Origin: Sphingomonas sp.
GTDB taxonomy: Bacteria; Pseudomonadota; Alphaproteobacteria; Sphingomonadales; Sphingomonadaceae
Length of the DNA: 36,815 nt
Assembly: GCA_019508115.1 (NCBI GenBank)
Contig: JAEKMC010000077.1
Span: forward strand, 1 to 36,815
Direction of reading: 5' to 3'
Every line of letters begins with the position of its first letter. The stretch's first letter is position 1. A program made the translations under genes and the position numbers. Under the pieces are notes generated by a model. The model saw only the letters and a program-made list of their open reading frames with translations, made no database searches and had not been told where the DNA came from. Shown in pieces: positions 34,499-36,720 of this stretch.

Positions 34499-35383
34499 AT
34501 GCGCCGTCTCCGCCTGCTCGCCCCGCTTCTCCTGCTCGCCGCCGCCCCAGCCCAGCCTTCCCAAAGCGAGCGGGCGCATCCCGCGCTTTGGAAGGTCGCC
34601 GACGCGGACACGACAATCTATCTGTTCGGGACGATCCACATCCTGCCCGCCGGCACGGTCTGGATGGATCCCGCCATCAGGCAGGCTGTGGACAGCGCGC
34701 AGTCGCTGACGCTCGAAGCCGTGCTCGATCAGGATCCAGGCCAGGTCGCGACCGTGCTGATGAAGATCGGCACCGCCAAGGGCCTGCCTCCGCTCGCCGA
34801 GCGCGTCCCGCCCGCCAAGCGCGCGTCGCTCGCCGCGTTGGTCAAGGCGAGCGGCCTGCCGTCCACATTCCTCGACGGGATGAAGAGCTGGGCGGCGGCG
34901 ATCATGCTGACCGGCCCCGCGCTTCAGCAGATCGGGGTCGATGCCGCCGCCAGCCCCGGCGTCGAACCGCAACTCACCGCCTTGTTCCGCTCCGCCAAAA
35001 AGCCGGTCGAGGGGTTTGAGACCGCCGAGATCCAGCTCGGCTATTTCGACAGATTGCCCGAAAGCGCGCAGCGCGCCTTCCTGGTGGCGACGCTCGACGA
35101 TCCCGCCAAGGCCAAGGCCGATTTCGTCAAGATGATCGCCGCGTGGGAGAAAGGCGATCCCGCCGCGATCGAAAAGAGCTTCGCCGACGACCCCGAATTC
35201 ACCCCCGCGCTCCGCGACCTGCTGATCCGCCAGCGCGACCGCAAATGGGCGGACGCGATCACGAAGCGGCTCGATCAGCCCGGCACCGTCTTCGTCGCAG
35301 TCGGGGCGGGGCACCTCGTGGGCCCGGATTCGGTGCAGAGGATGCTCGCCGACAAGGGCTTGAAGGTGACGCGCATTCAATAA
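34499..35383 (+). CDS. TraB/GumN-family protein
   Basis: 294 residues from ATG 34499 (AGGGA five bases upstream). A signal peptide (RLLAPLLLLAAAPAQPSQS) suggests export. Family landmarks are ALWKVADADTTIYLFGTIHILP near the N-terminus (GTIH motif) and the C-terminal VFVAVGAGHLVGPDSVQRMLADKGLKVTRI (GxGHL motif). The TraB/GumN (PF01963) family is related to the Tiki metalloproteases, with the GTIH and GAGH motifs likely contributing to a metal site. The function in this organism is unknown. It is divergent from glyQ with 87 bases between them. A palindromic repeat begins five bases after its stop. Confidence 0.88.
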   Translation: MRRLRLLAPLLLLAAAPAQPSQSERAHPALWKVADADTTIYLFGTIHILPAGTVWMDPAIRQAVDSAQSLTLEAVLDQDPGQVATVLMKIGTAKGLPPLAERVPPAKRASLAALVKASGLPSTFLDGMKSWAAAIMLTGPALQQIGVDAAASPGVEPQLTALFRSAKKPVEGFETAEIQLGYFDRLPESAQRAFLVATLDDPAKAKADFVKMIAAWEKGDPAAIEKSFADDPEFTPALRDLLIRQRDRKWADAITKRLDQPGTVFVAVGAGHLVGPDSVQRMLADKGLKVTRIQ

Positions 35384-35387
35384 TGCG

Positions 35388-35417
35388 CGTCATGCTGAAC
35401 TTGTTTCAGCATCCATC
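35388..35417. repeat. 30-base palindromic repeat, copy A (left of the GIY-YIG gene)
   Basis: Identical over 30 bases to 35765-35794 in the same orientation. The core ATGCTGAA (35392-35399), CTTGT, TTCAGCAT (35405-35412) is a hairpin. The Shine-Dalgarno AGGAGG of the following gene touches its right edge. Confidence 0.88.
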
Positions 35418-35435
35418 AGGAGGCAAACTCCGTCG

Positions 35436-35750
35436 ATGCGGGAGAGGCAACCGTGCGTCTATATCCTGGCCAGCTGACGCATAGGCACGATCTACATTGG
35501 CGTGACGTCAGACCTGATGGCGCGGCTTTATCAGCACAGGAATGGCTCGAATCCCGGTTTCACAAAAACATATGACGTGAAGAAGCTGGTCCGCTTCGAG
35601 ATACTCGACGGTATGCCATCTGCGATTGCCCGCGAAAAGCAGCTCAAGCGTTGGCACCGTGACTGGAAGATCAACCTGATCGAGCAGGATAACCCGCATT
35701 GGGTCGATCTCGCCGTTGGATTAGGCTTCCCGCCTCTTCCCAATCCCTAA
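35436..35750 (+). pseudogene. GIY-YIG nuclease-family protein with in-frame stop
   Basis: A 104-codon frame from ATG 35436 (AGGAGG upstream) reads MRERQPCVYILAS, then TGA at 35475-35477, then RIGTIYIGVTSDLMARLYQH and on to 35750. Without the TGA this is a complete UPF0213/YhbQ-type GIY-YIG domain: VYILAS and IYIGVTSDL correspond to the GIY and YIG strands, and the rest has GFTKTYDVKKLVRFE, AIAREKQLKRWHRDWKINLIEQDNPHW. A GTG at 35502 could start a fragment lacking the first strand, probably inactive. Such proteins may act in DNA processing; the role is unknown. It is flanked by identical palindromic repeats. Confidence 0.85.
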
Positions 35751-35764
35751 CCGTCACCAGCAAC

Positions 35765-35844
35765 CGTCATGCTGAACTTGTTTCAGCATCCATCGGTGAG
35801 GTCAGTGCCTCGCCGCGGAATGGACCCTGAAACAAGTTCAGGGT
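35765..35844. repeat. Palindromic repeat copy B and an inverted relative (BIME-like)
   Basis: Copy B (35765-35794) is identical to copy A. An inverted, related palindrome ACCCTGAA-ACAAG-TTCAGGGT follows at 35824-35844 in opposite orientation. The pair forms a BIME-like unit in the 210-base gap before rplY. The remainder of the gap is the rplY leader, with no other gene. Confidence 0.8.
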
Positions 35845-35960
35845 GACGGGGAACCCGTCAGTTGCCTATCCACACCCTTTCCGCTACAGGCGCGCCTCCC
35901 CGTCAGGTCATCCCTGGAGGCTGGCGGGTCACATTCACTTAAGCGAACTGGAGACACGAT

Positions 35961-36593
35961 ATGAGCGAAGCGCTCACTCTGTCGGCCGAGACGCGCGAAC
36001 GGGCTGGCAAGGGAGCCTCCCGTGCAATGCGTCTTCAAGGCCGCGTCCCCGCCGTGGTTTACGGCAACAAGCAGGAAGCCCTCTCGATCCACGTCGAGGA
36101 GAAGGTCCTGGTCAAGATGCTCAACACCGGCCACTTCATGAACTCGGTCGTGATGATCGAGGGCGCCGGCGGCGAAGTCATCCGCACCCTGCCGAAGGAC
36201 GTCCAGTTCCATCCGGTCAATGACCGTCCGCTCCATGTCGACTTCCTGCGCATCGGCGAGCACACCAGCGTGCACGTCAACGTGCCGGTCGTGTTCACCG
36301 ACGAAGAGCAGAGCCCCGGCATCAAGCGTGGCGGCGTGCTCAACGTCGTGGCGCACGAGCTGGAGCTGATCGTCGACGCCGCCGACATCCCCGACGAGAT
36401 CAGCATCTCGCTGGCGGGGCTCGAGGTCGGTTCGTCGATCCACATCTCGCAGGTCGCGCTTCCGGCCGGTGCCAAGGTCAACCACGCCGAGACCGACTTC
36501 ACCGTCGCGACGATCGTGGCCCCGTCGGCGCTCAAGTCGAGCGAAGGCGATACCGAGACCGAAGCCGCCGAAGGCGAGACGCCCGAAGCTTAA
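35961..36593 (+). CDS. rplY: 50S ribosomal protein L25 (general stress protein Ctc form)
   Basis: 210 residues from ATG 35961 (GGAG eight bases upstream). The N-terminal L25 domain (1-~95) binds 5S r[49 protein letters not shown]. The C-terminal TL5/Ctc domain (~100-190) includes [44 protein letters not shown] and LPAGAK. An acidic tail ([15 protein letters not shown]) follows. It is the long form usual in alphaproteobacteria. It precedes pth, a very common pairing. Confidence 0.96.
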
Positions 36594-36602
36594 GCCCAAA
36601 AG

Positions 36603-36720
36603 CCCTCTCCCCCTCGGGGGAGAGGGTTGGGAGAGGGGGAGTCGGGACTGAAAGGGGAGCGCCATCGCTCCGTCAGTCCCCTCTCCCGAGCCCTCTCCTC
36701 TGAAGGGGAGAGGGGGTCCT
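36603..36720. repeat. Composite palindromic repeat between rplY and pth
   Basis: CCCTCTCCCCC-TC-GGGGGAGAGGG (36603-36626) is a perfect 11-bp stem; GGGACTGA/TCAGTCCC (36644-36651, 36673-36680) encloses an inner GGAGCG/CGCTCC hairpin; a further CCCTCTCC...GGGGAGAGGG pair ends at about 36716. This BIME-like cluster sits between genes usually co-transcribed and may set their relative expression. Confidence 0.75.

Follow-up and report, generated by a model that had tools for sequence, protein, structure and literature searches.

A small gene for a GIY-YIG protein lies between two identical palindromic repeats in a contig of Sphingomonas sp., and the question that this locus raises is whether gene and repeat belong together, the one perhaps a nuclease that spreads or maintains the other. 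The locus stands near the right end of the window, by which we mean the whole stretch of DNA that was analysed (36,815 nt). The explanation that we favour, and consider likely to be right, is a lineage-linked pair of GIY-YIG nuclease and CGTC-tagged REP, of which the window holds a decayed copy and whose intact members would probably cut their own REP.

Anatomy of the repeat-bounded unit

The features of the locus are the following.

35388 to 35849, plus strand: whole inserted unit of 462 nt, as delimited by us from the neighbour genes and the gaps of relatives
35388 to 35417, plus strand: left REP, a CGTC-tagged palindrome of core type TGAACTTGTTTCA (repeat search; DNA hairpin z -5.3)
35418 to 35423, plus strand: AGGAGG, a likely Shine-Dalgarno sequence abutting the left REP (sequence reading)
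35436 to 35750, plus strand: GIY-YIG (PF01541) gene of 104 codons with an in-frame TGA at 35475 to 35477, a pseudogene or truncated gene (profile search, 54.2 bits)
35502 to 35750, plus strand: longest ORF remaining in the GIY-YIG frame, 82 aa, GTG start (ORF list)
35765 to 35794, plus strand: second REP, identical to the left copy (repeat search)
35820 to 35848, minus strand: third REP, whose variant stem is ACCCTGAA, lying inverted with respect to the 35765 copy (joint hairpin z -8.3)

The earlier note had claimed two identical 30-base palindromic repeats, and the copies of this 30-nt repeat, CGTCATGCTGAACTTGTTTCAGCATCCATC, at 35388-35417 and 35765-35794 proved to be exact; 0 of 100 shuffled sequences gave two matches to it at 3 or fewer mismatches. 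The Shine-Dalgarno sequence said to abut the left repeat was likewise found, as AGGAGG 12 nt ahead of the ATG at 35436. Each copy folds into a hairpin with an 8-bp stem and a 5-nt loop, the CGTC ahead of it being unpaired, and the left copy contains in full the parts of a CGTC-tagged REP, namely CGTC, the 8-bp stem ATGCTGAA, a 5-nt loop and CCA. The third copy, CGTCACCCTGAACTTGTTTCAGGGTCCAT, which the earlier note does not mention, is a variant of the 30-nt repeat and forms one large hairpin with the 35765 copy, and the CGTC tags of this doublet point outward. The unit is therefore ordered as REP, GIY-YIG gene and REP doublet. It is bordered on one side by a TraB/GumN-like gene (stop at 35383), and on the other by an L25-like gene (start at 35961). 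Past the L25-like gene, at 36601-36714, we observed a pair of 26-nt palindromes rich in C/T and G/A, which are 81% alike and do not resemble the REPs.

A complete GIY-YIG unit of about 400 bp had been proposed here, and in this respect the proposal failed: the TGA is codon 14 of 35436-35750 and falls inside the GIY-YIG motif, dividing its two halves (VYILAS*RIGTIYIGVTS). The read-through scores 54.2 bits against PF01541 with this one TGA inside, and P0001, P0002, the L004 protein and the window fragment all pass the cut-off of 22.6 bits. The 82-aa ORF from the GTG at 35502 contains neither of the motif tyrosines, that of GIY and that of YIG. An intact catalytic motif in a single open frame is thus absent from the window gene and present in most of its relatives. 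Because the TGA parts the two halves of the catalytic motif, the product of the window gene is probably inactive, and the broken gene, taken with the evidence from repeats and homologues, marks the window locus as a decayed copy of a known kind, a repeat-bounded nuclease unit.

The genome that holds the window (G000; 3.27 Mb, 258 contigs, 72% complete) has four GIY-YIG matches, and each of the four genes has hairpin repeats on either side of it, of a type not shared with the other three:

L001: CCCCGGC...GCCGGGG, without a CGTC tag
L002: TTCCCGC...GCGGGAA
L003, the window locus: ATGCTGAA...TTCAGCAT
L004: ATCCCAGC...GCTGGGAT

Eight exact copies of the core TGAACTTGTTTCA occur in G000, three of them at the window locus, and beside six of the eight, at 53-77 nt, stands an oppositely oriented hairpin whose core has at most 2 mismatches. 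The repeat is therefore, as expected of CGTC REPs, repeated in the genome and mostly arranged as inverted dimers.

Hairpin repeats beside GIY-YIG genes in other genomes

Two sets of loci were compiled. The first comprised the best 80 of 552 loci, chosen by protein similarity alone, together with the four loci of G000 (84 in all); its sources were sphingomonads, other Proteobacteria and records titled as Sulfurovum, Planctomycetota, LCP-89 and Moraniibacteriota. For 79 of the 84 loci, five having been dropped for short flanks, we counted the tagged hairpins that lie within 200 nt. They were observed upstream of the GIY-YIG gene in 43 loci, downstream in 47 and on both sides in 35, whereas control ORFs of the same loci had them upstream in 11/254, downstream in 11/254 and on both sides in 0/254; the enrichment around other GIY-YIG genes that a tie to the repeat had led the earlier note to look for is thus present. 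Hairpin density per 250 nt was 0.82 and 0.87 in the bins adjoining the gene, against 0.00-0.14 in other bins. A repeat common to both flanks (score at least 16) was found in 54 of 80 loci, four of the 84 being dropped for short flanks, as against 2 of 278 shifted controls.

The second set held 110 of the 216 GIY matches in genomes of the window's family, 30 taken straight from the search and 80 fetched, mostly the best-scoring; two of its members duplicate loci of the first set (L093 = L002, L101 = L018) and are counted both in the 110 and in the combined 194. Tagged hairpins lay upstream in 64 of these loci, downstream in 63, on both sides in 48 and on either side in 79, and 162 hairpins were counted at 0-250 nt versus 12 at 350-600 nt. 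The association of this type of GIY-YIG gene with hairpin repeats is general.

Over both sets, 85 of 194 loci have tagged hairpins on both sides. In 64 of the 85 the gene is enclosed by an inverted pair, made up of the closest hairpin on each side, whose tags point outward; the remaining orientations are -/- (8), +/+ (7) and -/+ (6), and the window has the less common +/+ layout, its right side carrying a full doublet. Within the 64 inverted pairs the median distance to the match is 58.5 nt from the start of the upstream REP and 25 nt for the downstream REP, and 27 of the pairs consist of identical hairpins. No typed hairpin was found on either side in 62 of the 194 loci, as counted by a detector that is blind to longer, degraded or untagged repeats such as those of L001; several of the 14 untyped loci inspected carry longer or degraded repeats.

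Repeat type and enzyme were found to be paired. Of 77 typed loci, 68 have stems and loops of one type on the two flanks, where shuffling gave a mean of 14.8. For the protein tree, the 194 loci gave 191 distinct sequences of at least 75 aa, 130 of them labelled with a REP type and 129 left after removal of a duplicate; on this tree, which is built on 99 columns and leaves 65 of its 126 inner branches unresolved, the REP type changes 42 times, against a shuffled mean of 78.3, and 0 of 200 shuffles were as low. The types that cluster are A (8 changes vs 35.5 on shuffling), B (16 vs 24.8), D (2 vs 8.8) and E (7 vs 8.8); clustering is weak for types F and C, and none was seen for G, H and I on the protein tree. 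Paralogues with different REP types coexist in single genomes, and host relatedness was controlled for by confining the shuffling of labels to paralogues that share a genome, a set of 51 genes in 20 genomes. We observed 17 changes, against a mean of 30.6 and a minimum of 20, with 0 of 2000 shuffles as low. REP type therefore tracks the enzyme lineage more than the host, with switches, although the rarer types are scattered on the protein tree. The aligned set shares the residues Y (191/192), Y (189/191), R (191/192), H (191/192), E (191/192) and N (190/190), which we take to be the catalytic ones. Stops within the matched stretch were seen in 11 of 191 rows; five lie at an extreme end of it, and six copies are clearly interrupted in frame (L003, L066, L090, L109, L191, L193).

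Repeat number was compared with gene presence in 99 genomes from 90 genera, and the two track each other, as the coupling proposed for this locus anticipated, in counts that take no account of phylogeny and with search patterns narrower than the REP type labels: of the 73 genomes that have a GIY match, 43 contain the A-type core, 40 the B-type pattern and 11 the D-type, against 4, 5 and 0 of the 26 that have no GIY match. Among the GIY-bearing genomes, where one without an analysed locus of a type was scored as lacking that type, the median number of REPs was 13 in the 22 with an analysed A-type gene versus 0 in the 51 others, 7 in the 16 with a B-type gene versus 0 in the 57 others, and 3 in the six with a D-type gene versus 0 in the 67 others. 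Exceptions exist: G066 has 10 A-type cores and G028 has 13 B-type REPs with no GIY gene detected, and G025, G072 and G098 carry D-type REPs with no analysed D-type gene. Among the sites listed, REP doublets of one and the same genome have nearly constant spacing, A-type doublets of about 62 nt in G001, G065 and G090 and B-type doublets of 76-81 nt in G031, as if doublets were copied as units.

Vacant sites, dispersed units and competing explanations

The window's site was compared over 30 L25 loci, one of them the window's own, and within 600 nt upstream of L25 the other 29 had neither a GIY match nor a tagged REP. A TraB-like gene lies beside L25 at a distance of 100-199 nt in 12 of the 29 and of 875-1024 nt in 3, and was not found in 14. 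The corresponding gap in the window is 577 nt, or 115 nt once the 462-nt unit is subtracted. The GIY gene and tagged REPs are missing from all 12 relatives in which the TraB-like gene still adjoins L25, which provides the site without the unit that had been sought in relatives. The gap contains an untagged palindrome in one of the 12 (L125), as it does in L124, which has no TraB neighbour; in the other 11 there is no palindrome with a stem of at least 7 in the 200 nt before L25.

Dispersal was observed in one genome, G067, which contains nine dispersed REP-GIY-REP units, deletion forms included: four of 389 nt, one of 388, two of 342 and two of 252. The 342- and 252-nt forms are missing an internal part of the gene; the former two are identical over 342/342 positions and the latter two over 248/252. 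Since each internally deleted form is present twice, the deletion forms must themselves have been copied. Apart from a few short similarities, which mostly join the right-hand flanks of two full units, the sequences 60 to 560 nt outside the units are unrelated. The genome has 18 D-type cores, of which 17 fall within the nine GIY units or deletion forms, and every unit is adjoined by one of the nine copies of an 18-nt stretch that lies outside the REP. Sequence is conserved beyond the REPs for about 27 nt on the left and 40-50 nt on the right, and the REPs therefore appear to lie near the ends of the unit and not exactly at them. The nine units (L233-L241) have TGTCGGG-like inverted ends, and seven of them share one orientation. 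G018 has three GIY matches, L242-L244, of which one is full-length and two are shorter; each lies near a D-type REP, and G018 is possibly a second genome with deletion forms.

A unit present at unrelated sites, and sites free of the unit, are the marks of a transposable element; both were found, but for different REP types, and the multi-copy evidence comes from the single genome G067. We propose that the family consists of single-domain nucleases of about 100 aa, each lineage being paired with a particular type of CGTC-tagged hairpin. Intact members would recognise their own REP folded as single-stranded DNA and cut there; such cutting would drive the copying of REP-bounded units, and REP doublets would be gene-less derivatives of these. 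From the dispersed copies and deletion forms we infer that the enzyme may spread the repeat. We are less sure of this than of the lineage-linked pairing, and that the enzyme drives the spread of the units is a suggestion we put forward tentatively. Equally tentative is its wider form, in which REP-GIY-REP units would be a distinct class of mobile element, hairpin-ended units mobilised by a single-strand GIY-YIG nuclease and not by a transposase, and the CGTC REPs and doublets of Proteobacteria and beyond would be gene-less derivatives, each kept by the lineage that recognises its stem and loop.

The gene could instead be of homing type, its nuclease cutting existing REP doublets into which the gene is copied by recombination between the REP arms, so that the REPs are the target and not part of what moves. 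The position of the gene between the arms of an inverted pair in 64 of 85 loci would agree with this, as would the difference between left and right hairpins in 37 of the 64, which resembles ordinary heterodimers, the frequency of gene-less doublets, and the untagged palindrome of L125, one of the 12 relatives at the window's site. However, with 17 of 18 D-type cores in G067 inside units or deletion forms, vacant targets are nearly absent from that genome; the 18-nt stretch outside the REP adjoins all nine units and is found nowhere else in it, and 11 of the 12 relatives offer no palindrome of stem 7 or more before L25. We regard homing as unlikely.

It is also improbable, in our view, that the nuclease has a resident function, for example on transforming DNA as reported for Ssn of Neisseria, with REPs accumulating nearby and neither being mobile through the other. 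The conserved residues and the reported transformation phenotype of Ssn would suit such a function, and so would a kept position upstream of pheS: 23 of 194 loci (22 distinct), in many genera, lie there, from which it follows that some copies are stable or that the site has been used repeatedly, a point against mobility alone. (The pheS-adjacent loci include L002, L013, L017, L023, L096, L122 and L155, and those typed have mostly B- or G-type REPs.) Against it stand the dispersed units and copied deletion forms of G067, the unit-free site in relatives and the six of 191 copies interrupted by an in-frame stop. Coincidence, by which REPs common between genes would lie beside a GIY-YIG gene as beside any other, is hardly credible: CGTC REPs are indeed widespread and mostly intergenic according to the accessible part of the 2013 survey (PMC3733652), but chance and general REP abundance are rejected by the control ORFs (both-sided REPs in 0/254 versus 35/79 GIY-YIG genes), the shifted controls and the distance bins, and coincidence is further contradicted by the matching of types and the protein tree.

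A phage origin of the gene was considered and rejected, as none of 50,697 phage records matched P0002 at E 1e-5. Among plasmid records 33 of 72,556 matched; two of these, N. gonorrhoeae records of 2.17 Mb (NZ_CP119140.1, NZ_CP119142.1), look like chromosomes.

Known repeats and nucleases, and the meaning of the pairing

The homologue in N. gonorrhoeae is 64% identical to P0002 over 88 aa, a homology that places the present proteins in the Ssn family, and 16 tagged hairpins of the dRS3 type lie in 3.3 kb around it. It is presumably the published single-strand nuclease Ssn. A Nat Commun study of 2025 reportedly describes Ssn as a Neisseria GIY-YIG single-strand nuclease that acts on the NTS repeat and affects transformation. 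If this is so, the activity of the enzyme and its pairing with a repeat are known in kind, and the suggestion that such a pairing might be undescribed has to be given up. By analogy with this homologue, intact members of the family may cut REP hairpins in single-stranded form. Ssn resembles the unit family in being a small single-domain GIY-YIG protein among hairpins; what would set the present loci apart is that the window copy is broken, that single genomes hold paralogues with differing REP types, and that the units and deletion forms of G067 are dispersed. As for the tie between gene and repeat proposed in the earlier note, it is upheld by the enrichment, the tracking of abundance and the vacant site, and fails on the broken gene of the window.

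GIY-YIG homing endonucleases such as I-TevI have the GIY-YIG catalytic domain and follow a selfish-gene logic. The unit has both in common with them, whereas here PF01541 stands alone, with no second domain found, and the presumed target is the enzyme's own flanking hairpin. A search of solved structures for a close homologue gave three weak matches (best E 0.036), and a search of NCBIfam gave one match, under the cut-off, to a group I intron endonuclease model.

The repeats of the window agree in tag, stem, loop, tail and dimers with published CGTC-tagged REPs, which, in the part of the survey available (Di Nocera 2013, PMC3733652), have a CGTC tag, an 8-9 bp stem beginning with A/T, a 4-5 nt loop and a CCA tail and occur mostly as dimers; dRS3 of Neisseria is its CGTC-1. 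The same part of that text associates these repeats with no transposase gene and seemingly with no dedicated enzyme, and the term GIY-YIG does not occur in it (PMC3733652); here, in contrast, they are paired with a GIY-YIG gene. The RAYT/REPIN system, as described in the portions available of two papers (PMC3116915, PMC3733652), is similar in that an enzyme gene is flanked by a paired repeat family, with repeat-specific copies in one genome and doublets as the dispersed form. It differs in its HUH tyrosine transposase and GTAG tag; with a GIY-YIG protein and a CGTC tag, the window unit was rejected as a member. A word search of titles and abstract openings retrieved no work joining GIY-YIG to REPs. 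As far as their accessible text goes, PMC9465073 has the GIY-YIG and REP words in unrelated places and PMC12306157 does not mention nucleases. The link of the family to CGTC REPs at large, the pairing within genomes and the transposon-like units were not found in the literature searched and are apparently newer.

CGTC REPs are widespread, and the 2013 survey found no dedicated enzyme for them (PMC3733652); the lineage-linked pairing names a candidate. As genes of this GIY-YIG family stand beside matching hairpin repeats in many bacteria, the family is the best candidate for the missing enzyme, using the repeat and possibly spreading it. Dozens of natural pairs of enzyme and repeat are at hand for mapping recognition, and the origin and spread of CGTC REPs become directly testable.
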